A stretch of DNA of 64,000 nt from Muribaculum sp. (GTDB lineage: Bacteria; Bacteroidota; Bacteroidia; Bacteroidales; Muribaculaceae): contig JAMPAV010000001.1 in NCBI GenBank assembly GCA_023667055.1, positions 250,716 through 314,715 on the forward strand, in the 5' to 3' direction. Below the pieces are notes generated by a model, which did no database searches, was not told the DNA's origin, and worked only from the letters and a program-made list of their open reading frames with translations. A program made the position numbers and the translations under genes. Of the stretch, positions 2,201 through 21,837 are shown one piece after another. How positions within the stretch are numbered: the stretch's first letter is position 1; each line of letters starts with the position of its first letter.

Positions 2201-2225
2201 GAAAAATATCGGAATATCCCTTAGA

Positions 2226-3662: not shown

Positions 3663-3723
3663 GATTAAAGTCTATTTAAGAATTGGGCATATACATTAGC
3701 GCATATCCTTCGTTTAACTGCCG

Positions 3724-3755
3724 CAAAATTACAAATTAGACCAATATAATGCAAG
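3724..3755 (-). promoter_or_regulatory. Bacteroidetes-type promoter for the leftward PCMD group
   Basis: Read on minus, the -7 box TAATTTTG (3724-3731) lies 20 nt from CTTG (3752-3755), a one-mismatch -33 box. It is about 60 nt upstream of the 3662 start. Confidence 0.5.
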
Positions 3756-3822
3756 AATCATTCTTATTTTCACCAAACAATATCCCAATCTGACCAATAA
3801 ACACACTGAAGAGAATTATTTG

Positions 3823-4152: not shown

Positions 4153-4169
4153 AAATTTTGAAGGCGTTG

Positions 4170-5141
4170 CTATTTTATCCTCAACATACGCTTTGACACG
4201 TCCATAGCAAGCCGATTCAATTGCTCACAAAAATCCTTGCTTAATCCCACCTTAGCCTTGGAATGTTCCAATGGAGCGATAAGCAGCAATCTGCCCTGAC
4301 AGCACATATCATGCCAGCGCCCCTTGGGAGAATACCTTTCTCCGAAGCCATCCTTCTCAATTAAAATAATCCTGCCTCCCTCATCAGCACACCAATCCCT
4401 AACCTTCTTTTCTGCAGCAGATATAAATGGGGATACCAACACACCACAGTTTTCAACAGTTCTCTTCCATGTCATCTTCTTTTCCCTCAATTCCCTATCA
4501 GTATAAGAACGGCTAATTTTAACTGCCTCCAGATCCATATCCATCAATAAATGTATATTGCCATACGCTTCGTATTCTTTTCCATTCTCGTGTATAATCC
4601 TGTATCTTGAATGAAAACCACGGTTAAGGATTCTTTGCAGTCTGCGGCGAGGATTGTCACCGACATAATCAAGCATTTTCTTAAGTTGTCCCTCCTTCAT
4701 AAGGATTCGGTCGTGATACCCCTCTTCGAATATCGATATTCCAGGTGGTATCAATTTGAGTTCAACACATCTTTTCCCTATAGATATTTTTAATTTGCCA
4801 ATAATCTCACCAAGATTACATCTACCACCTTCTTCCACAAAAATGACAAAATGAATATGCTCAGGCATGATAGACCTCCTTAATATGCTTACAAATGGAT
4901 AATCTTTCTTTATCGCGGAAATTCCGGAATTGATTACCTCTCCAATTTCTGACCTGACTGCCACCGGCGGGAAATCATGCGAATACGGAGAACCGGACAA
5001 CACCGAAAATATCGGAATATGCGGAGCCGCATTTATTGTGATCATATAAATGCACCTACTTGTATAATCATGCCAAGGGGCACGACGACAACCGTATGGA
5101 ATAAGAGGACGAAACAATTCAATCGGGAAATCTTTGGTCAT
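4170..5141 (-). CDS. REP-associated tyrosine transposase (RAYT, Y1/HUH) with C-terminal extension
   Basis: A 323-aa protein. Residues about 27-170 match the Y1 transposase (IS200-like / TnpA_REP) domain: HUH motif His95-Ile-His97 in MPEHIHFVIF, and the probable catalytic Tyr159 in YVGDNPRRR. This family nicks single-stranded DNA at hairpins and is tied to REP repeats. Residues about 205-323 form an extra domain (VLVSPFIS, GERYSPKGR, LLLIAP) that looks Rossmann/DprA-like; that assignment is tentative. The gene is flanked by hairpin repeats in opposite orientations (4103-4152 and 5182-5235), the usual layout of a RAYT unit. Domesticated or mobilising activity cannot be told from sequence. Confidence 0.85.
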   Translation of the reverse strand: MTKDFPIELFRPLIPYGCRRAPWHDYTSRCIYMITINAAPHIPIFSVLSGSPYSHDFPPVAVRSEIGEVINSGISAIKKDYPFVSILRRSIMPEHIHFVIFVEEGGRCNLGEIIGKLKISIGKRCVELKLIPPGISIFEEGYHDRILMKEGQLKKMLDYVGDNPRRRLQRILNRGFHSRYRIIHENGKEYEAYGNIHLLMDMDLEAVKISRSYTDRELREKKMTWKRTVENCGVLVSPFISAAEKKVRDWCADEGGRIILIEKDGFGERYSPKGRWHDMCCQGRLLLIAPLEHSKAKVGLSKDFCEQLNRLAMDVSKRMLRIK

Positions 5142-5181
5142 AACTTTTCGTATATTTATGGTGCTTTAAGGGGATGGCATT

Positions 5182-5235
5182 CTTCGATGACCAAGGGCGA
5201 GCCCTTGGTAACGGAACAGCTTCGCGCTTCGGCAA
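5182..5235 (+). repeat. Single RAYT-type hairpin repeat upstream of the transposase
   Basis: One direct-orientation copy: CTTCGATG, hairpin ACCAAGGG-CGAG-CCCTTGGT, tail GTAACGGAACAGCTTCGCGC. With the inverted copy at 4103-4152 it brackets the transposase gene. Confidence 0.85.
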
Positions 5236-5399
5236 GAGATTGAGGCTTTTGAAAGGCTGCTACTAAAATAATAACAACTGGGATGTTAAGAATTTCCTTG
5301 TAGGTTTTATTAATACCAAAAGACATATCTAAATTTAAGATTGGAATCTGACGCTAATTTTTGGTCAGATTGGGATATGAAAGAAATAAAAGACACCCT

Positions 5400-5435
5400 T
5401 TTGTGTCAAAAATTTGGAATAATTTATTAATTTTG
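5400..5435 (+). promoter_or_regulatory. Possible promoter of the lipoprotein module operon
   Basis: A perfect -7 box TAATTTTG (5428-5435) lies 37 nt before the A1 start. The nearest upstream TTTG (5400-5403) is 24 nt away, longer than the usual 19-20, so the -33 assignment is weak. Apart from the repeat at 5182, the 5142-5472 gap shows nothing else. Confidence 0.4.
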
Positions 5436-5472
5436 CATAAAATTTTGCAAAATCAGACAACAATAACCCGAA

Positions 5473-8139
5473 ATGAACAAACTTAGATTTGGAACATACC
5501 TATTGGGGGCTGTCGCAGTTGTGGCAGGGCTGGCGAGTTGCGCCGACGAATCCCCATGGGGCTCAAGCTCCGGAGAGAAAGGGAGCATATCACTTACGCT
5601 TACGACAGACCTTTCATTCGACACAGCCAAACCGCTATTCCGCAGCGGAGAAGAAACAAACACCAATAATCTTGGCAATTTCATTACAGTGCCAACCCAA
5701 GACAAATTCACCTTCACCCTTCAGAAATCGGGAAGCGAAGAAGACCCTATAACTTGGACCGACAAAGAGCAAAAAGTTGCTGCAGGCGCTTACGACTTAA
5801 CCGCTCATTATGGCACAAAAGGCAAACAAGGATTTAATGTACCATATTTTGAAGCCAAAACCTCCGTAACAATCCTGCCGGGACGCACTTCAAATGTGGA
5901 TCTATCAGCAGAACTCAAAAATTCGATGGTGCAGATAATCTATACCAAGGAATTTCAGAATTACATGTCGGACTATGCTGTATCTCTCCGCACGGAAGGA
6001 CTTACCGACATGATTGAATTCCCGTCAAAAACATCATCTTCCGGGACAACGAATGCAGATGCAACCGAAAATAAGATAAGTGAAATTGCCTTTATCGAGC
6101 CAAATGAAGCAGAAATCTTCATAGGATTCACCACAAAAAACACAGGCATCACAGTACCCTCCTATTCATTAGGAAAATTTCCACCAGTAGCAAAGACCTT
6201 ATATCGCATCACACTTGATGTCACAGAACGAGAGACCGGAACCGCTCAACTTGTAGTCAGCTTCGATGAAAGCATGACCGAAGAAGACCGATATATCGAC
6301 CTGACAGAGGAATTACTAACCTCTGCAGCACCTGAAATCACCCCTGAGGGCTTCACGGATGGAGAATCCATTAATGTGCTTGACTATACCGAAGCGTCAA
6401 ACATGACATTAAAAATGACCGTCTTCGCACAAGGAGGATTGGAATCAGCCAGTCTTACCATAACGGGACCAGAGTCACCTCTCTCGACATGGAGTAATGA
6501 GATCAATCTTGTTGGTGCATCTGATACACAGAAGACTGCCCTTTCCTATGCCGGCATAGACGCCACCACGTTCTTCGGAATCCTTGAATCCACAAACACC
6601 ATTGCGGAACTCGACTTGACCTCTTTCTGCCAGAAACTGGCCAGCGGAAGTTTTGCGAAAGGAATATATAAGGTGTTATTAACAGTCAAAGACAACACCG
6701 GGAAATCCGATGAAATCTCGCTCTCATTAGATTCGAATGACATTCAGCTTAGTCCGGCAGCCGGGACTGAGCAGCAGACAATTGATTACGAATCAGACGA
6801 AGTAGTTCTTATGCTGGACTACAATGGAGAGAGTAATGATGATATAAATTTCAAGTATGTAGATGGGAATAATGAGGTATCCATCAACAACGTTAAAATC
6901 GAAGAAGTTATAGTAGCCGGGAAACCTGCCACAAGAGCTTACAGCAACCATCGCTATCGCTGCACCCTGACACTCCCCGAAGCGGCAAAAAAATCCTCAA
7001 TCACAATCAAAGCGTACTACCCCGGCGGATCCAAAACTTTTGACTTCAATGTCAAAGTTCCGGGATACAAACTTGAATATGATGCATTTGCGCACTATGC
7101 TTATATAAAAATAGTTCCAGACTCAAATGATGACCTAAACACAATATTAAAAAACATTACATACACATTAAACAATAATCCTATCACTCCTCAAACAGTA
7201 TCCGGGTATAACAATGTTTTCTTAATTACCGGACTTTCTTCATCTCCAGAAAACGGAACAGACTATACATTGCAATCCGCCATCACTACAGATACCAAGA
7301 CAACTATTACCTTTACCACCGAAAAAGAGGAAGCAATTCCGAATGGTGATTTTTCTGCTGTGACTCAAACAATAAACATGACCGGTGTACAAGTTGGTGG
7401 GACATATACCGGCACTGCACTTAGTAGGCCCGCATATCATTGGTCTTCAAGTATTGTGAGGGATACGCCTGATGGATGGGCTACAATTAACGCTAAAACA
7501 TGTTATACTGGAGCCTCAAACATAAACACATGGTTTTGTGTGCCTTCTACTTATGCTGAAAACGGAAAAGTCATTATCAGAAGTGTAGGATATGACCATA
7601 ATGGCACTACACCTGACAATTACAATAAGACACTTGTTTACTATAACAACAAAGCTCCATCTTTTGGCGAGGGCAAGCAAATTGCAGGTGAATTATTTCT
7701 TGGGTCCTACAAATTTGATGGCTCCGAGCATCGGACTGAAGGGATTGAATTCAACAGCCGCCCGGTATCCGTCACGTTCAGTTATAAATACGAACCTCTG
7801 AATAATGAAAATGCAAGTGCTGAATTCATTGTATGCGACGCTTCAGGGAATGAAATTGCAAAAGCTACAGATAAACTTGATGCAGCTTCTGAAGAAACGT
7901 CCAAGACTCTACAATTCAACGGTTATTCAAAATTCGGTGTTAAGGCAGCAATAATCAAAGCAAAATTCAAATCCTCTACAGCCACTTTGCCTTACATAAA
8001 CATTCCTACCGGCAGTGCATTAAAAGAAAAAGATGGTGTCCATGAAAAAAACGAAACTCTTGATGCCAATACCTATAATGCCGTTGCAGTAGGTTCTGTA
8101 TTAACTATTGATGACGTATCTTTAGGATATAATAAATAG
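5473..8139 (+). CDS. Module gene A1: large DUF4493/PCMD surface lipoprotein
   Basis: An 888-aa lipoprotein: lipobox GLASC with Cys23, followed by acidic residues (ADESPWG) fitting surface export in Bacteroidetes. Residues about 30-280 resemble DUF4493 (fimbrial-anchor-like beta sandwich). Two or three Ig-like beta domains follow to about 600, and residues about 620-888 form a PCMD domain (opens PNGDFS, closes LTIDDVSLGY). It is homologous along its length to A2 (10496-13207). B1 lies 46 nt downstream and C1 follows, so A1-B1-C1 are probably cotranscribed. Function unknown; a surface adhesin or glycan-binding role is inferred from domains only. Confidence 0.75.
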   Translation: MNKLRFGTYLLGAVAVVAGLASCADESPWGSSSGEKGSISLTLTTDLSFDTAKPLFRSGEETNTNNLGNFITVPTQDKFTFTLQKSGSEEDPITWTDKEQKVAAGAYDLTAHYGTKGKQGFNVPYFEAKTSVTILPGRTSNVDLSAELKNSMVQIIYTKEFQNYMSDYAVSLRTEGLTDMIEFPSKTSSSGTTNADATENKISEIAFIEPNEAEIFIGFTTKNTGITVPSYSLGKFPPVAKTLYRITLDVTERETGTAQLVVSFDESMTEEDRYIDLTEELLTSAAPEITPEGFTDGESINVLDYTEASNMTLKMTVFAQGGLESASLTITGPESPLSTWSNEINLVGASDTQKTALSYAGIDATTFFGILESTNTIAELDLTSFCQKLASGSFAKGIYKVLLTVKDNTGKSDEISLSLDSNDIQLSPAAGTEQQTIDYESDEVVLMLDYNGESNDDINFKYVDGNNEVSINNVKIEEVIVAGKPATRAYSNHRYRCTLTLPEAAKKSSITIKAYYPGGSKTFDFNVKVPGYKLEYDAFAHYAYIKIVPDSNDDLNTILKNITYTLNNNPITPQTVSGYNNVFLITGLSSSPENGTDYTLQSAITTDTKTTITFTTEKEEAIPNGDFSAVTQTINMTGVQVGGTYTGTALSRPAYHWSSSIVRDTPDGWATINAKTCYTGASNINTWFCVPSTYAENGKVIIRSVGYDHNGTTPDNYNKTLVYYNNKAPSFGEGKQIAGELFLGSYKFDGSEHRTEGIEFNSRPVSVTFSYKYEPLNNENASAEFIVCDASGNEIAKATDKLDAASEETSKTLQFNGYSKFGVKAAIIKAKFKSSTATLPYINIPTGSALKEKDGVHEKNETLDANTYNAVAVGSVLTIDDVSLGYNK

Positions 8140-8185
8140 TATCCGGTAAATCAATACCTAAAAGGAATACCAATAAGAAAAAAAT

Positions 8186-9097
8186 ATGAAACACAATATA
8201 TATACAATTATAATATCGGCGGCTATCGTCATGACAGGGCTGGCAAGCTGCGAAAAGGAATCGGCATTCGCACTGAATGAGGGCGAGGGAATGCTCGATT
8301 GCGAATCCATGACAGTGGAATACATCAACGGAGGACGCCAAGTGCGTAGTGCCGAAGATAATGTCACCGTAGATAAATTTATGATCAAATTTGTGAATTC
8401 AAGCAACGATACCATATCCAAATACGGATATACGAAACTGCCAACAGTAGTTTCACTTCCCGTAGGAGAATACACGATTCATGCCGAGTATGGAAACGAT
8501 GTGATAGCCGAATGGGATTCACCCTTCTTCCATGGAAAATCCGAGAAGATTACAATCGAGTCACAAAAAATAAAAAAACACGCTCAAATCATTTCCTGCA
8601 AACTCAGCAACATACGAGTTGCTGTGAATTTCGACAATCTAACCGATGTGAAAAATCCACAAGTAAAGGTGGTTGCAGGAGAAGCAAAAGACAATGCAAG
8701 TCTTAACTATACACCGGAAACTCAAGCCGAAGGCAAAATCGGATATTTCAAGGTTGGCAACAGTTCGACGATATCCGCCACATTCAGCGGAACAGTAACC
8801 GGTGCAGATGGAATGGAAAAGCAATTAACCGCCACACAAACATTTGATAAGGTACAAGCCGGGAATGCTTATACTATAAACTTCAAAGTCAACAATCCCG
8901 TCATCAACAATGACGGCAACATCACAATCGGCAATGATGATGGCAATAATGGGTTTACAGTCGATGCCACCATCACCATCTCAGACCAGACTGAGGTGGT
9001 TGATCCTGACAAACCAGTGGAAGATATCATTAAAGACATGTATCCGCAACCGACAGGAGAAACCGAAGAGCAAGACAACACAACCGATAATCAATAA
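8186..9097 (+). CDS. Module gene B1: DUF4493 lipoprotein
   Basis: A 303-aa lipoprotein, lipobox GLASC with Cys22 and then EKES. A DUF4493-like domain occupies about residues 30-260; the shared core reads LPVGEYTIHAEYGN then WDSPFFHG. The C-terminus is a short acidic tail ending DNTTDNQ. Its paralogue B2 (13211-14557) begins almost identically (MKHNI...) but carries an extra C-terminal beta domain that B1 lacks, so B1 is either the ancestral short form or truncated. It is followed 24 nt later by C1. Confidence 0.72.
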   Translation: MKHNIYTIIISAAIVMTGLASCEKESAFALNEGEGMLDCESMTVEYINGGRQVRSAEDNVTVDKFMIKFVNSSNDTISKYGYTKLPTVVSLPVGEYTIHAEYGNDVIAEWDSPFFHGKSEKITIESQKIKKHAQIISCKLSNIRVAVNFDNLTDVKNPQVKVVAGEAKDNASLNYTPETQAEGKIGYFKVGNSSTISATFSGTVTGADGMEKQLTATQTFDKVQAGNAYTINFKVNNPVINNDGNITIGNDDGNNGFTVDATITISDQTEVVDPDKPVEDIIKDMYPQPTGETEEQDNTTDNQ

Positions 9098-9121
9098 ACA
9101 CAACTCAAAGAATTTTAAATC

Positions 9122-10375
9122 ATGAAAACAAATATTTCTTATTTGCTGACAGGAGTTGTGGGTATAGCATCGGTTTGCGGTTTGGCAGCTTGCACTTCTG
9201 AGACTCCCTACGATGGCGAGGAAATGGGCACAGTATATCTACGCACTACAATCAACAGCATCATCACAAGGGCAGATGAATCCACAGTCCAAGACAATCT
9301 TGCAGAGAACTGCGTAGTAAGTCTTTACCGCACCGACGGAGGAGAAGAGAAGGAAGGACTCATCTATCAGGTGAAGGGTCTCAATAACTTGGCTGAATCC
9401 TTAAGATTAGCCAAAGGGAACTATCGCGCAGAGGCCTGGACCGGAATCTATAAATATGCAACGTTTGCAAGCTCCGACCTTAATGATGAATATCGTTATT
9501 TCCTCGCAACTGAGAATTTTCAAATAACTCGTCAAGGAGACAACCAGACAGTGACATTAGATTGTAAGATTCAGAATGTGGCAGTCTCCATCGACACCAA
9601 AAGCATCTGGACGCAATCCGGAGAAACCGAAACAGCGGCAAACCTACTTGACTACATGAAGGATGACTATGAAATAACAATAGGCACTACAAAAAAAACA
9701 CTGACATTCAACAAGGAAAATGCCGAATATGCCATCGCTTATTTCATGATGCCTGAAGGAGAGGATTATCTCACTTATACAATAAGGGGACATCGTGCAG
9801 ATGCAAAAGATGATGATGATATGTTTACCAAGACCGGCAAACTTGAGAATGTAGTCCCCTCCTATCATTACAAACTGAAATTCAGTTATAACCCCGGATC
9901 AAACGACAGCAATGAAGTTGGAGGTGTCTCTTCCATTACAATTAATATTGACAAGGGTACGAACATGGCTGATCCCGTGGATGTGGATGTCAACGCTTCA
10001 TCCAAACCAATAATCACCCTGATTGACTATGACTATACAACATCATTGGATTTCTCAGACGAAAAGAATATTCCCAATCAACTGATTGCGATGATAAACG
10101 CCAATGGCAATAGCTTAAAAACCGTCAACATCAAGATTGATGGCCATGGAGAATCATCTTACAACTTGCCAAATGACAAATCAGTAGCAAAAAATACCGG
10201 CATCATTTGGGAAGAACCCATATATGATGAAACCACAAAGATATGCACCGCCTTTGTGTTCTTCGACAAGGAATTAATCAAAGGGCTATCAATGGGATCT
10301 GTCCACAAAATAGATATAACCGCCATTGACAATAACAGCGAGTCATCTACAGCCACCATCTCTATCCAGCGGTGA
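9122..10375 (+). CDS. Module gene C1: DUF4493 lipoprotein, short form
   Basis: A 417-aa lipoprotein, lipobox GLAAC with Cys24. It has a DUF4493-like domain (core LAKGNYRAEAWTG) and an Ig-like domain about 300-417. It matches C2 (14590-16878) through the Ig-like domain but stops where C2 continues into a fibronectin-III and a PCMD domain. A degenerate hairpin repeat lies 12 nt past its stop, so the C-terminal part may have been lost when the module was duplicated or the repeat arrived; that is an inference. Confidence 0.72.
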   Translation: MKTNISYLLTGVVGIASVCGLAACTSETPYDGEEMGTVYLRTTINSIITRADESTVQDNLAENCVVSLYRTDGGEEKEGLIYQVKGLNNLAESLRLAKGNYRAEAWTGIYKYATFASSDLNDEYRYFLATENFQITRQGDNQTVTLDCKIQNVAVSIDTKSIWTQSGETETAANLLDYMKDDYEITIGTTKKTLTFNKENAEYAIAYFMMPEGEDYLTYTIRGHRADAKDDDDMFTKTGKLENVVPSYHYKLKFSYNPGSNDSNEVGGVSSITINIDKGTNMADPVDVDVNASSKPIITLIDYDYTTSLDFSDEKNIPNQLIAMINANGNSLKTVNIKIDGHGESSYNLPNDKSVAKNTGIIWEEPIYDETTKICTAFVFFDKELIKGLSMGSVHKIDITAIDNNSESSTATISIQR

Positions 10376-10387
10376 TACATACGATAG

Positions 10388-10434
10388 CGTAAGAACGGCT
10401 TCGCGCTTCGGAAGGAGATAATGCAATGCTTCGA
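10388..10434 (+). repeat. Degenerate RAYT-type repeat at the junction between the two modules
   Basis: It keeps the tail AACGGCTTCGCGCTTCGGAA, the filler ATGCAATG and the start of a next unit (CTTCGAC), but has lost the hairpin head. It lies exactly between C1 and A2, the boundary of the duplicated modules. Confidence 0.7.
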
Positions 10435-10495
10435 CTGGAAGGATGAAAGGGAAATTATACAGAGAATAAACAACAATACAACTTATATGCCCAAC

Positions 10496-13207
10496 ATGAG
10501 TAAACTTAGATTTGGACTGCCCTTAATGGGAGCCGCTGCCGTGGCAGCGGGTCTTGTCGGCTGCGCCGACGAATCGCCCTGGGGCAACTCCTCAAACGAG
10601 AAAGGCACAATCGACCTGTCACTGATCACCAACAGCGACATCAAATCCGCCACGCCGGTTTTTGTAGGCGATGACGAGACACGTGCCACCGGCGACCCCA
10701 ATGACCTCAGCACATACGTGAGTGTGCCGACAGCCGATGATTTCAAAATAAAGCTTGAGAAAAACGACGGTTCGTTTAACCAGACTTGGAACTCGCTCGC
10801 AGCATTCAAACGTGATGCCGAAAACCAGTTTGTAGCCGGCACCTACACACTCACGGCTTTTTATGGCGAGAAGAATCAAATAGCTTTCAACAACCCTTAT
10901 TTCGAGACAAGCGAGACCTTCACCGTACTCGCCAACGAGACCCACAAACTCGACCTTAACGCCGGGCTCTCAAACTCGATGGTGAAGATAAACTTCACCG
11001 ACGACTTCAAGAACTATATGTCGGACTATTATGTCGGAATCCGCAGCGAAGGACAGACCGATGAGTTCAAATATCAGAAAAATGAACCGCGTCCGGTATT
11101 TGTTCAGCCCGAAAGCACAAATCTCACCGTGCATTTCACCACAAGAGACACGGGAGTGACCAACGCAAAAAACATTGGTCAATTCGTGGCACTTGCCAAG
11201 ACACTCCACAACCTTACGCTCGATGTGAGGACTGTGGATGGCAAAACAAGTCTCGGCGTACTTTTCAATGATACACTGGAGACAGAAAATGTCTTCATCG
11301 ACCTTTCCGATTGCTTCAAGGATATGGTGCAGGCACCGGTAGTGACTTGCAACGGTTTTGACAACGGTGCTACAATCAACCTTCTCGAAGGGACTGAAAG
11401 CCAGAGCACCATCAGTATGGATGTAGTGGCAGAAGCCGGTATCAAGTCGGCTATCATGACCATCAGCACCAACGGCACAGCACCTGAATGGGGAAGAGAG
11501 ATAGACCTGATAAAGGCAACACCAGAGCAACAGGAACAGATAGAAAACGCCGGTATAAAGGCCACCAGTTTCTTCAAGAATCCTGAAAACGCCGCTTCTC
11601 TCGACCTGACCCAATATGGCAAGAGCCTGAGCCACGGCACATACACCGTATCACTCCAGATTACCGACAAGAACGACAACATCAGTGAGCCTGCGAAGGT
11701 GATCTTCGACTTCGAGCAGATGAGGTTTGCGAATGCCGCCGGAACAGCAAATTATGCATCCACATCAGCCACCCTCAATCTTGACTACAATGGTTTGAAT
11801 CCGGCCGACATCAGGTTTACTGCCCCCGACAAGAACGGCAACGATGCAGAAGTGAGAGTGGAAAGCTACAGCGAAGCAAACTCCACAAGAGCATTTGAAG
11901 CCAAGACATATACATATCATCTTACACTTCCCACACCAATGACCGGCAAGGAAGTGACAGTGAAAGCTTACAACAAGAACAACGACAAGCAACTTGGCAC
12001 CGGCAAGATTTCACTGACTTCGACACCGAACTACAGCATCACGCAAGTGGATGCCTTCAGCAAGTTTGCCTACATGAAAGTGGATGCCGAAGTTTCAATT
12101 CTTCCAATCATCACTGAGAATATACGCCTTGACAACAACAATCTCTTCATCTACTCACGCGACACAGCCAACGGCATATTGACCGTAACCGGACCATTAG
12201 GCAACGACGGCAAGCCCACAGAACTTCAGCCGGGAAGAGAATACTCACCGCAGTATTCAATATTTGCAGGCGACTTCTCATACGGCAAAAGGACCACATT
12301 CAAGACAGAAACAATGTTGGATGTACCGAATGGAGAATTCTCCACACCGGGAGAGACCATAGAAAGTGGCAAAATAGATACCGGTGGAGAATATCGAGTC
12401 TCAGTGTTAGGAATAACAGATGACTATCAAAACTGGTCATCTTATTCATATACTTTACCATCCGGATGGGCAACCGTCAATGCCTTGACCACTTATTATA
12501 CAAATAGCAATAACCGAAATACTTGGTTTGAGGTTCCATCGTCATGGGTAGATAGTAACGGACAAGCCGTAATGCGTAACGTTGGATACAACCACAATGG
12601 GACAGCTCCGGCAAGGACAGGAGGGAATATGAATAGAGAATATTATTGTGAAAATTCTCCATCTGACAGCCAGTTGGAAAAAGCTGCCGGTGAGATATTC
12701 TTAGGATCATATTCTTTCAATGGCTCAGCAACGCGCACAGACGGAATTGGCTTTGCAAGCAGACCATCAAGCATTTCATTCGAATACACATACGAATTAA
12801 AGGCTGGCAAAAGCGACAATGGTTATGCTTACGTTGAAGTATGCGATGCTTCCGGCAACAAGATTGGCTCAGCAGAACCATTCGCCATACCGGAAACGAG
12901 CAGCATTACACAAAAAACAATAAACATAACCTACAATAAATTTGGTGGCAGCGCAGCATTCCTGAAGATTGGATTCAAGAGTTCGAATCAGACCACTCCC
13001 CCAATTTATATTCCTACAGGAAGCGAGCTGGACGAAGATGTTAAAAATATACGAAGTGATAGTAGCAAGACTATTGCTACGAACACGTACAAGGCGGTTG
13101 CGACCGGGTCTGTGCTGACCATTGACAATGTGAAGGCCAACTATACGCTGCCAATTGCTAACACAGCCAAAGCACCAAAACGTAAAGCCACCACTAAGAG
13201 AAAATAA
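10496..13207 (+). CDS. Module gene A2: large DUF4493/PCMD surface lipoprotein
   Basis: A 903-aa paralogue of A1 with the same order: lipobox GLVGC (Cys23), DUF4493, Ig-like domains, PCMD from about residue 608. The start at 10496 (MSKLRFG) aligns with A1's MNKLRFG and gives a normal signal peptide; a longer reading from 10421 would run through the degenerate repeat and is not credible. It ends in a basic tail (KAPKRKATTKRK) absent from A1. The first two thirds look GC-richer than the PCMD part (37 of 60 G+C in 10681-10740, 24 of 60 in 12421-12480). B2 starts 3 nt after its stop. Confidence 0.75.
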   Translation: MSKLRFGLPLMGAAAVAAGLVGCADESPWGNSSNEKGTIDLSLITNSDIKSATPVFVGDDETRATGDPNDLSTYVSVPTADDFKIKLEKNDGSFNQTWNSLAAFKRDAENQFVAGTYTLTAFYGEKNQIAFNNPYFETSETFTVLANETHKLDLNAGLSNSMVKINFTDDFKNYMSDYYVGIRSEGQTDEFKYQKNEPRPVFVQPESTNLTVHFTTRDTGVTNAKNIGQFVALAKTLHNLTLDVRTVDGKTSLGVLFNDTLETENVFIDLSDCFKDMVQAPVVTCNGFDNGATINLLEGTESQSTISMDVVAEAGIKSAIMTISTNGTAPEWGREIDLIKATPEQQEQIENAGIKATSFFKNPENAASLDLTQYGKSLSHGTYTVSLQITDKNDNISEPAKVIFDFEQMRFANAAGTANYASTSATLNLDYNGLNPADIRFTAPDKNGNDAEVRVESYSEANSTRAFEAKTYTYHLTLPTPMTGKEVTVKAYNKNNDKQLGTGKISLTSTPNYSITQVDAFSKFAYMKVDAEVSILPIITENIRLDNNNLFIYSRDTANGILTVTGPLGNDGKPTELQPGREYSPQYSIFAGDFSYGKRTTFKTETMLDVPNGEFSTPGETIESGKIDTGGEYRVSVLGITDDYQNWSSYSYTLPSGWATVNALTTYYTNSNNRNTWFEVPSSWVDSNGQAVMRNVGYNHNGTAPARTGGNMNREYYCENSPSDSQLEKAAGEIFLGSYSFNGSATRTDGIGFASRPSSISFEYTYELKAGKSDNGYAYVEVCDASGNKIGSAEPFAIPETSSITQKTINITYNKFGGSAAFLKIGFKSSNQTTPPIYIPTGSELDEDVKNIRSDSSKTIATNTYKAVATGSVLTIDNVKANYTLPIANTAKAPKRKATTKRK

Positions 13208-13210
13208 ACC

Positions 13211-14557
13211 ATGAAACACAATATATTCTATTCAATATTGGCAGCCACATCGGCAATCATCGGTTTGTCGGGCTGCGAGAAAGAGAGTATCTTCAACCCT
13301 TCGCAGGAAGAAGGTCAACTCGACTGCCGTTCGCTGAACGTTGACTATATCAACAGCGGCCGACAGACACGTGCCGACAACGTCAACTTGGGAGACTTCG
13401 ATGTATATTTCATCAAGACAGAGACCGGCGACACTGTAAAGACATATAAATATGCCGACATGCCGGAGATGGTGACTCTCCCGAAGGGCGACTACCGGGC
13501 AGAGGCCGTATATGGCGACAATCCTATTGCCCAATGGGATTCGCCCTACTACAAGGGCAACTCCACATTCAGTATCACACCGGGCAAAATCACCGAAAAC
13601 ATAGACCCTGTGGAATGTGAACTCAGCAATATCCGTATCCGTGTCAATATTGATGACCTCGGACTCGGAATTGTCGGCGATGATGCCAAGGTAGTGGTAA
13701 AAGTCGGTAATCAGGGAAGCCTGACCTACGACAAAAGCACCAACAACAGGTCAGGATTCTTTAGATACATCACCGACAGCCATTCCATAACCGCGACATT
13801 CTCCGGCACTGTGGATGGAGTGTATGTGGATGGTATCACGCGTGCATACGACAATGCCGCCGGAGGTAATTCCTACGTAATCAACTTCACCATCACCAAA
13901 CCGGATGAGATAGAACCGGGCGGCATACAGATTGGCGATGACAACAACAGCGGTATTTTTGTGGATGCCACAATCTCCATCAAGGATGAGAATATTGTCA
14001 TAGATCCCGACGACAGCAACAATGACGGAGAAATAAAAGATGACATGCGCCCTGTGGAAGAGCCGCTTCCGAACAATCCCGGAAACGACAATCCGAATCA
14101 GGGAGGCACAACAGAACCCGGTAACACAGAGAATCCCGGAGGCGATGATCCCGCACCCGCAGTCAAGGGACCACAGATTATACTTCCAGAAGGTCAAGAT
14201 TTAGGTAAGCCATGGCATGTAGATGCTACAAGCGTAGTTGCATTTACCGTGACAAGTGAAACAGGAATAACCGAATTCCTAATTAACATCGATTCAACAA
14301 CTTTGACACCCGATGAACTTGAAGGAGCAAATTTGTCAGCCAACCTTAATCTGATTGAGCCGGGTGAATTTGAAGAAGGACTTATAGATCTTCAATTTCC
14401 TGTGAAAGATGATGTCAAGGGTCAAACTTCTGTATCTTTTGATATAAGCGGGTTCATTCCATTGCTCAATATTTTAGGATCCGGTTCGCACAAATTCAAT
14501 CTAACAATATCTGATCAAAGTGGGACAACCCATGGAACTATCTGGCTTGAAAATTGA
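13211..14557 (+). CDS. Module gene B2: DUF4493 lipoprotein, long form
   Basis: A 448-aa lipoprotein, lipobox GLSGC with Cys22. It is a paralogue of B1 over about residues 1-275 (core LPKGDYRAEAVYGD then WDSPYYKG). It then has a Pro/Asn/Gly-rich linker (about 280-325) and an added beta-rich domain (about 326-448) that B1 lacks. The added domain is visibly AT-richer than the rest, suggesting separate acquisition. Third from last in the A-B-C series; C2 begins 32 nt downstream. Confidence 0.72.
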   Translation: MKHNIFYSILAATSAIIGLSGCEKESIFNPSQEEGQLDCRSLNVDYINSGRQTRADNVNLGDFDVYFIKTETGDTVKTYKYADMPEMVTLPKGDYRAEAVYGDNPIAQWDSPYYKGNSTFSITPGKITENIDPVECELSNIRIRVNIDDLGLGIVGDDAKVVVKVGNQGSLTYDKSTNNRSGFFRYITDSHSITATFSGTVDGVYVDGITRAYDNAAGGNSYVINFTITKPDEIEPGGIQIGDDNNSGIFVDATISIKDENIVIDPDDSNNDGEIKDDMRPVEEPLPNNPGNDNPNQGGTTEPGNTENPGGDDPAPAVKGPQIILPEGQDLGKPWHVDATSVVAFTVTSETGITEFLINIDSTTLTPDELEGANLSANLNLIEPGEFEEGLIDLQFPVKDDVKGQTSVSFDISGFIPLLNILGSGSHKFNLTISDQSGTTHGTIWLEN

Positions 14558-14589
14558 TACTATCACAACTCTAAAAACGTAAAATTAAA

Positions 14590-16878
14590 ATGAAAAGACA
14601 AATTTCAAATATACTGACAGGAGTTGTGGGAGTCACGTTGACAGCGGGACTTTGGAGCTGCTCCGCCGAAACTCCCTTCGACAACGATGGAGTCGGGACT
14701 GTGCATCTTCGCACAGTGGTAAACACTATCACTACACGTGCCGAAGATGAAACCAACACCAACGACCGCGAGCAATACCTCCGCGACAAATGCGTTGTGT
14801 ATATATCCGATGAGAACGGTCTTGTATATAAAGAAGTGGGGCTTGACAATGTGAAACCCGCCATATCTCTCAAAACAGGCCATTACGTGGCCGAGGCATG
14901 GTCGGGCGACTCCGTGACAGCTTCTTTCGACAAGATGTTCTTCAGAGGTTACCAACCGTTTGATGTGACAAAGGGAAGCGAAAGCAACGTGGTGGTGGAT
15001 TGCAAAATCAGAAATGTGGTGGTTTCCATAAATACAGAGACCATCAACAGCGAACTTATCAAAGACTACAAAGTGATTGTTAAGAACACGCGTGGCAGTC
15101 TTGAGTTCACCCCTGCAAATGCAGTCACCGACCGAGGATATTTCATGATGCCCAACAAGGATAACAAACTTGACTACACCATAGAAGTGACACGCAAGGA
15201 TGGAGAGACAGTACCCGTGAGCGGCAGCATCGAAAATGTGGAAAGTGCCCACCAATATATCCTCAACTTCACCTACGACAACATCACCGCAGGTGGTGGC
15301 GGCTCAGGATATGTGATGTTTGAAATAAAAATCAAGGATGAAGACCTGACCACCGGCAACGTATCCGTGCCATCAGCACCCACAGTGACCGGAGTTGAGT
15401 ATGACATCGAGAAACAGCTTGTATATACCGGAGAGGAAGAAATCCCCAATGAACTTGCAGTGAAAGTGTGCGGATTCGGCAACGGCCTCAATGAACTGAA
15501 GATAGACAGCAATTCCGATTTTGCCTTCGGGGAGTCGGCATCCTACTATCAGAAGAACCTTGAGCTGAACATCAACATGCTTCAGACCGGAGGAGAGAAT
15601 ATCGACAACTACAACCATGCAGGCATCTCTTGGGTGGCAGCAAAATACAACAGCACCACCGACATCACCACCGCCTATCTGAAATTCTCCCAGGATTTCA
15701 TTCGCAATCTGTCGGCAAGAGACGATGAGCATGTGATAAACATCAGGGTTACAGATGCCGCCAACCGTACCACCATCAAACCCATCCGCATAGCCCGCAG
15801 CGGGAATGCTATCCATTATGATGACCCAATCGTGGTGCAACCGGTTGACACGGAGTCCAACCCGATGAGTGTGACAGGCACCACAGCCACCCTTACCTTC
15901 ACACTTGGAGATGACTATGAAGGGACACCCGGAGTGGAATACCGCAAGGAAGGAGACACTGATACATCATGGACTTTTGTGGCGGCCAATTCCAGCTCAA
16001 ACGCACCCCGACGGACACTACGAAAAGCACCATCAGTTAACAGCGTAACAATTACAGGACTTGAAACCGGCACCACATATCAGTATCGCGCATGTTGCGG
16101 CGATTTCCACAGCGAGGATATCATGACACTCACTACCGAGGATAAATTCATCATACCCTATGCGAATATGGAAACCTGGAATTCATTTAAAATTGCAGGT
16201 ACAAATGATTGCACATTGCCCGGAACATCGGCAGATGAATTCTGGGGAAACGGGAATCCGGGGTCAATGACTATGAATGTAACATTGACTCAGGCAAGTT
16301 CGGATATGTTCACATCCGGTCAGCAAAGTGCCAAGCTTAGATCCCAATTTGTCGGATTAGGCGGATCTGTAGGCAAGTTTGCTGCGGGAAACCTTTTTGC
16401 CGGAACATACTTAGAGACTCAAGGGACAGACGGACATCTTACGTTCGGTCGTCCATACAATGGAAGTCATCCTCAGGCACTTAGGGTTATGGCCAACTAT
16501 CGTCCGGGTACAGTGAACAAAACTGCCTCAGAAGCTCCATTAATTGTAAAAGGAGATCTTGACATTGGCCAGATATATATAGCACTGACAACTGATCCAA
16601 TAGAAATATTCACAAAAAAAGCAACAAGAAAATTGTTTAATCCTGATGATCCGGAAGTATTGGCATACGGCGAATATACATTCAATAAGGAAAGCTATGG
16701 CCCTGACGGACAATTGAAAGAACTTGTGATTCCGTTTAATTACTATGACAAAGCTAAGGAAAAAGGCAATAAGCCAGCTTACATAGTAATAGTATGTTCA
16801 GCCTCAAAGTTTGGTGACTACTTCTGTGGAGGAGAAGGATCAACGCTATATCTTGATGACTTCGAACTTGTATATTGA
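14590..16878 (+). CDS. Module gene C2: DUF4493, fibronectin-III, PCMD lipoprotein
   Basis: A 762-aa lipoprotein, lipobox GLWSC with Cys24. Its DUF4493-like and Ig-like regions (to about 410) match C1. It then has a fibronectin-III-like segment (about 430-515, LETGTTYQYRACCG) and a PCMD domain (about 520-762, ending LYLDDFELVY). The PCMD closely resembles that of the 20242 lipoprotein: both contain GKxAAGxxxxGxYxxTxGTxGxLxFGRP. Probable last gene of the operon; a structured intergenic block and a strong terminator follow. Confidence 0.74.
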   Translation: MKRQISNILTGVVGVTLTAGLWSCSAETPFDNDGVGTVHLRTVVNTITTRAEDETNTNDREQYLRDKCVVYISDENGLVYKEVGLDNVKPAISLKTGHYVAEAWSGDSVTASFDKMFFRGYQPFDVTKGSESNVVVDCKIRNVVVSINTETINSELIKDYKVIVKNTRGSLEFTPANAVTDRGYFMMPNKDNKLDYTIEVTRKDGETVPVSGSIENVESAHQYILNFTYDNITAGGGGSGYVMFEIKIKDEDLTTGNVSVPSAPTVTGVEYDIEKQLVYTGEEEIPNELAVKVCGFGNGLNELKIDSNSDFAFGESASYYQKNLELNINMLQTGGENIDNYNHAGISWVAAKYNSTTDITTAYLKFSQDFIRNLSARDDEHVINIRVTDAANRTTIKPIRIARSGNAIHYDDPIVVQPVDTESNPMSVTGTTATLTFTLGDDYEGTPGVEYRKEGDTDTSWTFVAANSSSNAPRRTLRKAPSVNSVTITGLETGTTYQYRACCGDFHSEDIMTLTTEDKFIIPYANMETWNSFKIAGTNDCTLPGTSADEFWGNGNPGSMTMNVTLTQASSDMFTSGQQSAKLRSQFVGLGGSVGKFAAGNLFAGTYLETQGTDGHLTFGRPYNGSHPQALRVMANYRPGTVNKTASEAPLIVKGDLDIGQIYIALTTDPIEIFTKKATRKLFNPDDPEVLAYGEYTFNKESYGPDGQLKELVIPFNYYDKAKEKGNKPAYIVIVCSASKFGDYFCGGEGSTLYLDDFELVY

Positions 16879-16899
16879 TATAGGTAACGCAAGAAATAT

Positions 16900-17020
16900 T
16901 TGTGCATTTTTCACAAGGCGTCCCTCCGGGACTACGGTGCTTCTGTATGGCATTCCCCGGACTTGAAGTCCGGGGTTTTCACACAAACCAGCCCTCCGGG
17001 CTGCAATGACAAATGCACAA
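16900..17020 (+). other. Structured intergenic block of three hairpins inside an outer stem
   Basis: The outer arms TTGTGCATTT (16900-16909) and AAATGCACAA (17011-17020) are exact reverse complements. Between them are GTCCC-TCC-GGGAC (16920-16932), a nine-pair stem CCCCGGACT-TGA-AGTCCGGGG (16955-16975) and GCCC-TCC-GGGC (16991-17001). This may be a 3'-UTR structure, a small RNA or a composite repeat. The longest reading frame here (16846-17268, minus) has no protein character. Confidence 0.55.
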
Positions 17021-17050
17021 TCACATTGTGAAAACACTACAGAATAGTAC

Positions 17051-17086
17051 AAAGGGGACGCACCGCGACCACGGCGCGTCCCCTTT
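17051..17086 (+). terminator. Strong hairpin terminator of the A2-B2-C2 operon
   Basis: AAAGGGGACGC (17051-17061) pairs with GCGTCCCCTTT (17076-17086). The A and T flanks make it usable in both directions. Confidence 0.75.
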
Positions 17087-17186
17087 CCACGGAAAGACAC
17101 ATTACTCAAAGTAAAATTCTTTCGATTCCACTTATTTTCCAGCCTATTTTCCTGATGTAAAATTTTATCATTTCTTAAAATTTTGC

Positions 17187-17194
17187 TATCTTTG
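17187..17194 (+). promoter_or_regulatory. -7 box before the toxin-antitoxin pair
   Basis: TATCTTTG fits the Bacteroidetes -7 consensus 69 nt before the antitoxin start. No clear TTTG lies 19-20 nt upstream (that position reads TTTT), so confidence is moderate. Confidence 0.4.
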
Positions 17195-17262
17195 CATTCT
17201 AACCACAAATACGGTACAAACCAATACATAGTAAAATTTGTATTAATATTAAAATAATTAAT

Positions 17263-17496
17263 ATGCAAACAGTGTCAGCACGTGAATTCCGGAGCAACCA
17301 GGGTAAATACCTTACCGCTGCAAAAAATGGACATCCGGTCATGCTAAGATCCAAATATGGCAATTTCCAGTTAGTTCCCATACAAAATGAGGACTCGCTA
17401 ACTTCACGTATATGTAAAGGATTGAAAGAAGTAAAAATGATAGAAGAAGGCAACTTGCCACGAAAAACTTTGCAAGAACTCATAGATGAACTTTGA
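17263..17496 (+). CDS. Type II antitoxin, Phd/YefM-like
   Basis: A 77-aa protein starting MQTVSAREFRSNQGKYL, the typical Phd/YefM opening, with the central GHPVMLRSKYGNFQLVPI strand pair of this fold. The acidic C-terminus (about 55-77) would wrap the toxin. In this family the antitoxin neutralises its partner and represses their shared promoter. Its last codons overlap the toxin start by 11 nt, the classic coupled arrangement. Confidence 0.8.
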   Translation: MQTVSAREFRSNQGKYLTAAKNGHPVMLRSKYGNFQLVPIQNEDSLTSRICKGLKEVKMIEEGNLPRKTLQELIDEL

Positions 17497-17824
17497 AACG
17501 CTTACCATACCTCACTTCGACAAAGAGATCAAGGCACTATCAAAAAAATATCGTTCAATAAAAGATGATCTAATATCCCTTAGAGAATCGCTGCAGGAAA
17601 ATCCTTTTCAAGGCACAGAACTAAGTCCGGGCATTAGAAAAATCAGAATGGCGATAACATCAAAAGGAAAAGGGAAATCTGGAGGGGCGAGAATTATAAC
17701 ATATACAGTATTTGTATCTGAATTGAATGGCAGAGTATATCTTCTTGATATTTATGATAAATCCGATTATTCTACAATTGAAGTAAATGTGATTAAATCA
17801 TTGATTTCAGAATTGGGATTATAA
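17486..17824 (+). CDS. Type II toxin, RelE/ParE superfamily
   Basis: A 112-aa protein of RelE/ParE size and layout: helical N-terminus (FDKEIKALSKKYRSIKDDL), then basic strands with IRKIRMAITSKGKGKSGGAR and the terminal YLLDIYDKSDYSTI. Members are ribosome-dependent mRNA endonucleases (RelE) or gyrase poisons (ParE). The Lys/Arg-rich middle favours the mRNA-cutting type, but this is inference. It is translationally coupled to the antitoxin and ends only 7 nt before the beta-barrel gene, so readthrough into that gene is likely. Confidence 0.78.
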   Translation: MNFETLTIPHFDKEIKALSKKYRSIKDDLISLRESLQENPFQGTELSPGIRKIRMAITSKGKGKSGGARIITYTVFVSELNGRVYLLDIYDKSDYSTIEVNVIKSLISELGL

Positions 17825-17831
17825 GATAAGA

Positions 17832-18566
17832 ATGAAGAAACTAACCATATTGCTAACAACGCTTTTCACGCTGGTGGGAATACTAACAGTCCGGGCCGAG
17901 GAGTTTGAGCCGGACTTCGAGTCGGTATGCTTTGTGCCCAAGGGGCAATGGATCACCGGAGTGAGCGTATCCTACAGCCAATCGACACAAAACAACTACC
18001 AGTTTTTAGTGCTGGAAGATATAACCGGTGACACTTATAGCCTGAAGGTATCGCCCATGCTGCTTTTCACATTCAAGAACGACCTTGCGGCAGGCGGCAA
18101 ATTTGGCTACAACCGCAGTCTTACAAAACTGGAGAACGCCGACATAGTATTTGATCCTGAGACAAACTACAATGTGGACCATCTCTACCGTCTTGCCCAC
18201 AACTACTATGGCATGGCAGTGATGCGCAACTATTTCTCGCTCGGGAAATCGAAACGATTTGGCATCTTCACCGAAACCCAGTTTGAGGTAGGCGGAGGCC
18301 AGGCAAAAATAATGACAGGTCTCGGAGAAGACCTTTCAGGCAGCTATGAGAAAAGTTTCAATGTAGGGATTGGTCTTGCCCCGGGCATGGCAGTGTTTCT
18401 CAACAATTTCACCGCCCTTGAGGTAAACGTGGGAGTGTTAGGGTTTGAATACAATCACATCACGACACTCACCGACCAGATATATGATGCGCATATAAAG
18501 ACAAAAAGCGCCATCTTCCGCATCAATCTGTTTTCAATAAATTTCGGCGTAGCATTCTATCTATAA
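17832..18566 (+). CDS. Outer membrane beta-barrel protein
   Basis: A 244-aa protein with a signal peptide (MKKLTILLTTLFTLVG... VRAEE) and alternating strands ending in FGVAFYL, a terminal barrel strand. Its body aligns with the C-terminal half of the next gene (both have PKGQW, LGKSKRFGIFTE / LSRRGRFSVYNE, and a closing FSINFGV / FNINFGV). The spacing to that gene is 3 nt, so they are paralogues in one operon. No known function. Confidence 0.72.
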   Translation: MKKLTILLTTLFTLVGILTVRAEEFEPDFESVCFVPKGQWITGVSVSYSQSTQNNYQFLVLEDITGDTYSLKVSPMLLFTFKNDLAAGGKFGYNRSLTKLENADIVFDPETNYNVDHLYRLAHNYYGMAVMRNYFSLGKSKRFGIFTETQFEVGGGQAKIMTGLGEDLSGSYEKSFNVGIGLAPGMAVFLNNFTALEVNVGVLGFEYNHITTLTDQIYDAHIKTKSAIFRINLFSINFGVAFYL

Positions 18567-18569
18567 GTC

Positions 18570-20036
18570 ATGAAAATAAGGAGCATAATATCAACATGTA
18601 TAGCAGTGGCATTATCCACACTGCCAGTGGCTTCCGACATTCATGCCTCAGAGATGCCGAAGCCGGAACCTCTCCCCCACCCCACCGAAGAACCAAACGA
18701 CACGGTGATAAGCGGAGCCACTAAAAGCGTGATAGAGACATTCGGAGAACTCAGCCGCACGGCTTCAAAGCTTTCCGAGACAGCATTGAAACTCCTGCAG
18801 GCACAGGAGGAAATAGACAACCGCAGAGAGGAATCCACCCAACAAAGGAGGAGGAAGCAAACAAAGCAACCGGATGACCCATACGGAAGGAGAAACAAAC
18901 AAAACACCGGACGACCAGACAGAATAAAGAATGAGACTATAAGAAAGGTTTATATAGAAAACGATCCGGAGGAGGAGGTTTACTCTGATGAAATTGAAGA
19001 AGAGGTTTACACCGGCCCACGTGTATTCATAAGTGATGAAACAGAACCTTATATCGAAGAGACACCGCAGACAACCATCTTCGAAGGTGACCACACAACG
19101 ACCCCACACGTATTCATAAGCGAGAGTGAGGACACCTTCACTGAGGAAAACCACGCAGAGGATACCGCCACATCAAAGGCCGACCGAATGAAATCTCTTT
19201 GGGATCTCCAGCCAGAGGGTGCAGAGGGGGGACATTATGTATGGGTGCCCGATGGCCAGACCTACATCCCCATGACAAAAGAAAACAGCGGTGAGCCGGA
19301 TCTCAAGGAACTGACATATTGGCATGGCGACTCCATTCCGCTTGCAATTCCCTCAAAACGATTCGGCAGGTATGACCGCAAACTCTACAACTGGCTCATC
19401 TATCCCAAAGGCCAATGGCACATAAGCCTATCAGCCAACTACGGGGAACTAACCACCGATGACTCCGAAATACTATCTCTGCTTAAAGACATAGACATAG
19501 GAGGAAAGATCTATAGCATCAAGCCTTCGGTGAGCTACTTCTTCAAGCATAATATATGCGCCGGCATACGCCTTGCCTTTACAAGAGGTGAACTTGGCAT
19601 CGACAACTTCAAGGTGGATGTGGATGAAGACATCAACTTCAATCTCCACGATGTGAAGTATAGCAGCGACAGCTATGCCGCCGCCATATTCCTTCAGCAG
19701 CATTTCGGGCTGAGCCGACGCGGCAGATTCTCAGTATATAATGAAGTTGAACTTGCCTACGGCATGGGAAGCAAGCATTTCATACGTCCTTTCGACGGGG
19801 AGATGAGAGACACTCGCACAAAGACCAACAGTTTCAACATAAACTACTCTCCCGGTGTGAGCATCATGGTGATGAAAAATGCTGCATTCAACCTGTCGTT
19901 TGGCATATTCGGTTTCCACCTCCAGAATGAGAAGCAGTGGGAGAACGGAGAGGAAAGCGGCAACCGCTTCACGAGTGGCATCAATTTCCGCTTCAACATC
20001 TTCAACATCAACTTTGGAGTGTCGATCATAATATAG
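18570..20036 (+). CDS. Beta-barrel protein with helical and acidic N-terminal half
   Basis: A 488-aa protein. The signal peptide is followed by a helical segment (about 50-90, SRTASKLSETALKLLQAQEE) and a basic stretch. Next comes an acidic disordered part with two copies of the phrase PRVFISDETE / PHVFISESED (about 110-200). The C-terminal ~240 residues are a beta-barrel homologous to the preceding 244-aa protein, ending NINFGVSIII. The N-terminal half could act as a periplasmic or surface arm. Function unknown. Confidence 0.7.
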   Translation: MKIRSIISTCIAVALSTLPVASDIHASEMPKPEPLPHPTEEPNDTVISGATKSVIETFGELSRTASKLSETALKLLQAQEEIDNRREESTQQRRRKQTKQPDDPYGRRNKQNTGRPDRIKNETIRKVYIENDPEEEVYSDEIEEEVYTGPRVFISDETEPYIEETPQTTIFEGDHTTTPHVFISESEDTFTEENHAEDTATSKADRMKSLWDLQPEGAEGGHYVWVPDGQTYIPMTKENSGEPDLKELTYWHGDSIPLAIPSKRFGRYDRKLYNWLIYPKGQWHISLSANYGELTTDDSEILSLLKDIDIGGKIYSIKPSVSYFFKHNICAGIRLAFTRGELGIDNFKVDVDEDINFNLHDVKYSSDSYAAAIFLQQHFGLSRRGRFSVYNEVELAYGMGSKHFIRPFDGEMRDTRTKTNSFNINYSPGVSIMVMKNAAFNLSFGIFGFHLQNEKQWENGEESGNRFTSGINFRFNIFNINFGVSIII

Positions 20037-20037
20037 T

Positions 20038-20066: not shown

Positions 20067-20121
20067 TATCGGTATCTGACATATAAAGTTTAGGAGGAAT
20101 AAAGATAAATTAACATCGGGA

Positions 20122-20241: not shown

Positions 20242-21837
20242 ATGGCAAGGCATATATCATACATAATAAATATACAGTATTATCTACTTTTGGCGAGCCT
20301 GATGATGGGCCTGGGAGGATGCATTGAGAATGACATTCCGTATCCGCATCTGCAGCAAAACATACTTGTGCTTGAGGCAGGCGGGGAATTGCGTCCTGCC
20401 CGGATAGACTCCACCAACCTGACCGCCACCATTTTCCTGGATGAGCAAACGGATATCCAAGCCGTGCAATTCACCGAATTCAAATATTCAACCGATGCGA
20501 TATGCGACAAGGATCTGCTTGACGGCACCTGGGATCTTTCCGTCCCAATCACAGTGGAACTGTCGCGATTCCAAAGTTACCAGTGGATGATATCTGCAGA
20601 ACAGGAAATCGACAGGTATTTCACCATAGCCGGACAAATCGGCGAAACGATATTGGATGCCGTGGGCCGGCGCATCATTGTCAACGTGCCGGAAAGTGCC
20701 AATCTGTCATCGCTTGAGATAACCTCCATCAAACTTGGTCCGGCAGGTATAACCACACTCGACCCTTACTACCGTGCAGGCAGTGTCATCAACCTGTCGT
20801 CGCCCAAACGCATTGAGGTGACGGCATGGGGGCGCACGGAAGACTGGACCATTTATGCCCAACGCACAGCACAGGTGGTATCCACCACGGCTGTTGACCC
20901 ATGGAGCATGGTGGTGTGGGCATACGGACAGGGACCGGCTGAGGCTGACAATTATTTTGAATACAAAGAGAGCGGAGCCGCAGGCTGGACAGAAGTATCG
21001 AGAGCCGACATCACAAAAAAAGAAGGAGCTTTCAGCTGCTGCATAAAGCATCTGAAACCACTCACCACATACGTGGTGCGCAGCCGAAGCGGAGAAAACA
21101 TAGGCAATGAGATGACCGTGACGACTCAGGCCACAGAGGTCCTTCCTGACGGAGACTTCGAACAGTGGTGGAAAGATGGAAAGATGTGGTGCCCCTGGGA
21201 TGAAAACGGCACACAATTCTGGGATACCGGCAACAAGGGAGCCACCACACTCGGAGAAGCCAATGTGTCGCCATCAGATTATGTCCCTGCCGGACTAAGT
21301 GGGAAATCGGCTGAACTAAAGACAGAGTTCAAGGGTATCGGCAGCATCGGAAAACTTGCAGCCGGGTCTATATATACAGGCAAATACGTGAAAACCGACG
21401 GCACCAACGGAATACTTGATTTCGGACGGCCATGGACAGTGCGCCCAACAAAGTTGCGCGGATATTATCAATACACCACAGGCGACATCAACTACAGCAA
21501 CAAGGAGATGGAATATCTCAAGGGACGACCCGACACTTGCTCCATCTACATTGCTGTGACTGACTGGACAGCACCATACGAGATCCGCACGAATCCCAAC
21601 AACCGCCAGCTCTTCGACAAGAACGCAAGTTATGTAATTGGCTACGGGCAACTTGAGCGTGGTTCTTCAATGAGCGGATACGAGGATTTTGAGATAACGC
21701 TCGAATACCGGAGCACATCCATACAGCCAAGCTATATAATGATTACCTGTGCGTCGTCGAAATATGGTGACTATTTCACCGGATCAAATTCTTCGGTGCT
21801 GTATGTGGACCAGCTATCGTTGGATTACGACTATTAA
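20242..21837 (+). CDS. PCMD-domain surface lipoprotein
   Basis: A 531-aa lipoprotein: lipobox LGGC with Cys27. Two Ig-like beta domains (about 40-290) precede a PCMD domain (about 300-531; PDGDFEQWW at its start, VLYVDQLSLDY at its end). The PCMD is the closest match in this window to that of C2. It lies downstream of the two barrels on the same strand and closes the accessory surface island. Ligand unknown. Confidence 0.75.
   Translation: MARHISYIINIQYYLLLASLMMGLGGCIENDIPYPHLQQNILVLEAGGELRPARIDSTNLTATIFLDEQTDIQAVQFTEFKYSTDAICDKDLLDGTWDLSVPITVELSRFQSYQWMISAEQEIDRYFTIAGQIGETILDAVGRRIIVNVPESANLSSLEITSIKLGPAGITTLDPYYRAGSVINLSSPKRIEVTAWGRTEDWTIYAQRTAQVVSTTAVDPWSMVVWAYGQGPAEADNYFEYKESGAAGWTEVSRADITKKEGAFSCCIKHLKPLTTYVVRSRSGENIGNEMTVTTQATEVLPDGDFEQWWKDGKMWCPWDENGTQFWDTGNKGATTLGEANVSPSDYVPAGLSGKSAELKTEFKGIGSIGKLAAGSIYTGKYVKTDGTNGILDFGRPWTVRPTKLRGYYQYTTGDINYSNKEMEYLKGRPDTCSIYIAVTDWTAPYEIRTNPNNRQLFDKNASYVIGYGQLERGSSMSGYEDFEITLEYRSTSIQPSYIMITCASSKYGDYFTGSNSSVLYVDQLSLDYDY

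Follow-up and report, generated by a model that had tools for sequence, protein, structure and literature searches.

A widespread Muribaculaceae locus of three DUF4493 lipoproteins with a predicted fimbrillin-like fold, doubled in one genome

Within a 64,000-nucleotide stretch of Muribaculum sp. DNA (the window; contig JAMPAV010000001.1), three lipoprotein genes, here called A, B and C, are followed by a second set in the same order. What the three proteins do, and whether the trio or its doubling is the conserved feature, are the questions that this locus raises. All six open reading frames, A1-B1-C1-A2-B2-C2, were found on the + strand at 5473-16878, as described below, with the domain layout of A1 assigned by analogy with a structural model of A2.

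5473..8139, + strand: A1, lipoprotein with DUF4493 (aa 36-277), Ig-like domains and a divergent C-terminal PCMD; candidate Arg cleavage R57|S58 (codon 5641-5643)
8186..9097, + strand: B1, short B of 303 aa, lipoprotein with DUF4493 only; candidate R54|S55 (8345-8347)
9122..10375, + strand: C1, short C of 417 aa, lipoprotein with DUF4493 and an Ig-like domain; candidate R50|A51 (9269-9271)
10496..13207, + strand: A2, lipoprotein of 903 aa with DUF4493 (~aa 36-271), Ig-like domains and a PCMD-like domain (aa 606-886); candidate R57|A58 (10664-10666)
13211..14557, + strand: B2, lipoprotein of 448 aa with DUF4493 (aa 34-264), an acidic DDxRP linker and a C-terminal Ig-like domain; candidate R54|A55 (13370-13372)
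14590..16878, + strand: C2, lipoprotein of 762 aa with DUF4493 (aa 35-256), Ig-like, Fn3 (429-510) and PCMD (547-762) domains; candidate R50|A51 (14737-14739)

For A2, the ATG at 10496 (MSKLRFG), rather than a start at 10421, fits the signal peptide. Each of the six lipoproteins carries a lipobox and one DUF4493 domain (PF14900), with Pfam E values of 1e-26 (A1), 3e-30 (B1), 7e-24 (C1), 5e-34 (A2), 4e-35 (B2) and 1e-36 (C2); scores of 85-127 bits against a curated cut-off of 27 make all six clear members of a family to which Pfam gives no function, and a literature search on DUF4493 and PF14900 returned no paper naming it. The lipobox Cys is present in 6 of 6 proteins and nearly invariant among orthologues, and the whole genome holds no DUF4493 gene besides these six. 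Best matches ran within pairs (A1-A2, E 2e-156; B1-B2, 5e-64; C1-C2, 2e-56; identities of 38%, 41% and 32%, respectively), cross-type matches being weak (E 3e-12 or worse), and the gene starts of the B and C pairs are near-identical in DNA (B, 16/16 nt; C, 34/41 nt). Thus, the pairwise homology, the shared lipoboxes and DUF4493 domains, and the near-identical signal peptides reported in the first-pass annotation of this DNA all held up. Ig-like domains occur in A, B and C, as judged from the models and the B alignment, and Fn3 in C. In B2 and the B orthologues, an acidic DDxRP motif is conserved in the otherwise variable proline-rich linker between DUF4493 and the Ig-like domain.

We surveyed the trio among relatives. 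The A-B-C order on one strand was found in 49 of the 49 fetched loci holding all three genes, with median gaps of 15 bp between A and B and 10 bp between B and C; in a second genome collection of 45 loci, the order agreed wherever the contig was long enough. This collection includes a trio in the Prevotellaceae metagenome-assembled genome (MAG) L177, and A plus B in a second Prevotellaceae MAG, L178. Because five surveyed loci carry A alone, A is the core member. In a sample of 59 Muribaculaceae genomes drawn evenly from 26 genera, DUF4493 was found in 53, mostly as exactly three genes with frame sizes of ~800-900, 420-530 and 670-770 aa; B2 and C2 match the lengths standard in relatives (~430 aa for B, ~750 aa for C). 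Within the genus, DUF4493 occurs in 104 of 111 genomes, nearly all with three genes, and six were found only in the window genome. DUF4493 is rare outside Muribaculaceae: among the remaining order-level genomes searched, 4 were positive, and 197 others drawn from the phylum were all negative. Altogether, the A-B-C trio is near-universal in Muribaculaceae; the doubling, which had first drawn attention, is private to the window genome within its genus, and the conserved unit is the single trio. Homologues standing singly or in a different order would have refuted the earlier proposal that the three proteins cooperate; the survey did not refute it, and the trio may assemble together on the cell surface, where interaction, filament and ligand are predictions. 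Conserved neighbors lie downstream of C2.

17832..18566, + strand: OMP 1, conserved flank (cluster c0), 244 aa, weak DUF3575 match
18570..20036, + strand: OMP 2, conserved flank (cluster c0), 488 aa, with an outer-membrane beta-barrel C-terminus (OMP_b-brl_2, below cut-off)
20242..21837, + strand: D, conserved neighbor, lipoprotein with PCMD (E 6e-47)

Many relatives have the OMP genes directly after C, at the place where the window has a toxin-antitoxin pair; this pair, a Phd/YefM-like antitoxin and a RelE-like toxin (17263-17824, +), scores below the Pfam cut-offs.

The fold of DUF4493 was examined with AlphaFold models of C2 (pLDDT 82.5) and A2 (pLDDT 85.4), which were built from different alignments and searched against the PDB. 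Residues ~34-254 of C2 matched the "putative cell adhesion" structures 4k4k (Z 9.3) and 3liu (Z 9.2), as well as the Porphyromonas gingivalis protein Mfa3 (5nf4; Z 9.1 over 185 residues, rmsd 3.4), a tip fimbrial protein according to the title of the structure entry; Foldseek added 4gpv, 3ufi, 3pay and 5cag as matches for this part. In the A2 search, residues 35-262 matched 4h40/BF2867 (Z 9.3, rmsd 6.3), the sole fimbrillin entry that stood out. By established knowledge, the Bacteroides "cell adhesion" matches are type V pilins. Both models, made separately, thus predict that DUF4493 folds like the type V (FimA/Mfa) fimbrillins, with Z scores of ~9 that are moderate for beta-sandwich proteins. 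At the sequence level, hhalign of DUF4493 against ten Mfa_like_1 proteins of the window genome gave a probability of <5% over a small alignment, and PDB profile searches gave nothing significant for the A and B alignments and, for the C alignment, PCMD and Fn3 structures only. Since the profile-profile comparison is not significant, the link to fimbrillins rests on fold and layout; if it is true, the type V pilin fold widens to a family that sequence searches leave unconnected.

Layout contributes a second line of evidence. Both models place a conserved Arg (R50 in C2, R57 in A2) beyond the first strand, which spans 35-44 in C2 and 36-46 in A2. An R[AS] motif lies 11-60 residues past the lipid Cys in 75/87 A, 73/82 B and 68/75 C proteins (216/244 in total), against shuffle means of 37, 25 and 29 and maxima of 50, 37 and 42, respectively; it is absent from the tested stretch in 9-14% of the A, B and C sequences. 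Controls from the same loci were at chance, with the motif in 7 of 33 D proteins and 17 of 51 other lipobox ORFs. Type V pilins are lipoproteins whose N-terminus is cut by a surface clostripain, as reported in Bacteroides (PMC12632263), and the window genome encodes a C11 clostripain-like peptidase. Its 16 Mfa_like_1 (PF13149) matches have in common with the trio a lipobox, one strand, TR|A and a beta-rich fimbrillin domain, the lipobox-strand-TR|A layout being shared by most of them; unlike the trio, they lie at other loci and do not follow the A-B-C order. Judged from sequence, most A, B and C proteins bear, past the first strand, a candidate R|A/S site at the position of the cut in type V pilins, and cleavage there is our prediction.

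At the other end, the PCMD (PF13201) of C2 scores 119.6 bits against a curated cut-off of 28, whereas that of A1 falls under it (21.1 bits) and that of A2 is recognized by fold only. The C-termini of A2 (606-886, Z 16.5) and C2 (517-762, Z 22.7) share the fold of the PCMD proteins 3hbz, 4jrl, 4het and 3s30, Bacteroides "putative glycoside hydrolases"; in contrast to these, the PCMD of A2 and C2 is joined to a fimbrillin-like domain, and no enzyme activity is implied. The next structural neighbors of the C2 domain include glycosidase beta-sandwich domains (Z ~11), and the PCMD common to D and C2 is 33% identical over 317 aa. PCMD, whose fold is carbohydrate-binding-like, thus closes both A and C and may bind sugar; the earlier suggestion of glycan binding gains support from this domain. 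Tips of type V pili often bear a C-terminal ligand domain (PMC12632263), and the C-terminal domains suggest a tip rather than a stalk type.

We consider it somewhat probable, at about 0.55, that A, B and C are Arg-processed, fimbrillin-fold surface adhesins, three accessory or tip-like proteins that may polymerize, bind sugar and form a complex. In this scheme, the lipobox would direct the three proteins through export as lipoproteins to the outer surface, where an Arg-specific protease, probably the C11 clostripain-like one, would cut at R|A/S after the first strand. By analogy with type V pilins, this cut would detach the strand that bears the lipid, and the groove so exposed would allow strand exchange with a partner. 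A and C would then present their C-terminal Ig/Fn3 domains, ending in PCMD, as the ligand-binding end, and B, bearing an Ig-like domain, may serve as adaptor. The trio would work like the tip trios FimC-FimD-FimE and Mfa3-Mfa4-Mfa5 of P. gingivalis (PMC7616799; PMC5954841), with which it shares three accessory proteins, their lipoprotein nature, an Arg after the first strand and a fimbrillin-like N-terminal fold (compared with Mfa3). It differs from them in that its locus lacks genes for a stalk (FimA/Mfa1) and an anchor (FimB/Mfa2), sequence similarity is not detectable, the C-termini are PCMD and Ig/Fn3 domains, and a single family, DUF4493, supplies all three proteins. Mfa_like_1 matches, even the nearest, fall outside the module; a search of the window genome gave no Mfa2-family anchor despite the 16 Mfa_like_1 matches, and we recognized no C-terminal donor strand. 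Because the locus has no stalk or anchor, the sequence link is not significant and no donor strand is known, we do not claim full type V pilus membership; the "filament or adhesin" first proposed gains support from the fimbrillin-like fold and the conserved Arg site, the filament being a prediction. Muribaculaceae are abundant gut bacteria whose surfaces are poorly understood, and the adhesin reading, if true, would turn a "domain of unknown function" locus, its gene order kept across most of the family, into an adhesin system open to testing, for which both a protease site and a carbohydrate-binding end are predicted.

The neighborhood allows a different and rather doubtful interpretation, in which A, B and C form a stationary outer-membrane glycan-binding lipoprotein complex with the OMPs and D, the fimbrillin-like domain being a mere mount and the role comparable to that of surface glycan-binding proteins of polysaccharide loci. 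PCMD is present in A, C and D; the two OMP-type genes of cluster c0 and D adjoin A or A-B-C in many loci (D in 30 of the 49 A-B-C loci), and A alone occurs with OMP-OMP-D. The trio is, however, also found without OMPs and D, no SusC/SusD pair recurs among the partly annotated neighbor clusters, and permanent lipid anchoring offers no explanation for the lineage-wide R|A/S past the first strand.

As to the doubling, the tandem duplication proposed at first is real, but the copies are neither equal nor recent. B1 is without the C-terminal Ig-like domain of B2 and C1 without the Fn3 and PCMD of C2, copy 1 being trimmed at domain borders, and the candidate Arg, read from the sequence, stands at an identical residue number in both copies (A 57, B 54, C 50). 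Between the copies, fourfold-degenerate third positions are identical at 23-39% of sites, which is near-random, while codon positions 1 and 2 stand at 0.56-0.67; this contrast indicates an old duplication with constraint, measured on both copies jointly. An assembly artifact is ruled out by copies that are 32-41% identical and of unequal lengths on a 921-kb contig. The A, B and C trees are alike in placing copy 1 as sister to a group made up of copy 2 and its closest relatives, with longer branches for copy 1 (0.64-0.87 versus 0.35-0.57). A1 and A2 as sisters were rejected in the A tree (AU p 0.0015), and the corresponding B and C tests did not reject (p 0.09 and 0.41). A recent species-specific duplication is thus ruled out for A only, B and C not deciding, and the A tree indicates a duplication of A before the split of close relatives.

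The A rejection would also suit an arrival of copy 1 from another Muribaculaceae by horizontal transfer rather than by local duplication, as would the lack of a copy 1 orthologue above 46% identity in any genome of the genus. We regard transfer as unlikely, since the common placement in the three trees is the pattern of an ancestral duplication with later loss and the B and C trees leave copy 1 and copy 2 free to be sisters. In our preferred reading, an old tandem duplication took in the whole trio; one set, the second, stayed canonical, whereas in the first B and C were shortened at their C-terminal domains and the lipobox, DUF4493 and Arg site were retained. This pattern is as expected for subunits retained for assembly, not binding. 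The missing domains, the longer branches and a REP fragment 17 bp past the C1 stop could mark copy 1 as a decaying relic without a function of its own; this, too, seems improbable to us, given three open frames that end at domain borders, the kept lipobox, the Arg at the same position as in copy 2, the codon constraint (both copies taken together) and the recurrence of short members elsewhere in the family. The last is seen in locus L103 (genome G023, 1-13609), which reads A-B-C-A-B-A-B-C and whose short A (412 and 399 aa) and short B (261 aa) keep DUF4493; its expansion is independent of, and larger than, the doubling in the window. Least probable of the readings considered here is a self-contained heteropolymer, in which protease-triggered strand exchange would join A, B and C in that order, with no stalk pilin as repeat unit, and the short duplicates would lengthen the fiber as spacers.

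Several elements surround and divide the two sets.

5400..5435, + strand: promoter-like site, Bacteroides-type (TTTG-N-TAnnTTTG), consensus match only
4170-5141, - strand: REP-associated tyrosine transposase (NCBIfam REP_Tyr_transpos, E 1e-8, below its cut-off)
3806-4157, 5165-5237, 10392-10434 and 22628-22818: REP-like repeats
10392..10434, + strand: partial REP element (family D2, 93% to reference) between the C1 stop and the A2 start, which are 120 bp apart

The promoter-like match is the only one on the + strand from 5400 to 21849; the window holds 10 such matches, with 1.8 expected. About ten REP-like repeats cluster near the transposase gene, with few elsewhere in the genome, and we infer that REP recombination may have trimmed C1. 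At one other locus (L116), a gene related to the REP-associated transposase (c28) lies between C and D. Upstream of these elements, the window encodes two more PCMD proteins (1031-3662, -), one with a Calycin_like domain, and an OMP_b-brl_2 gene at 243-1022.
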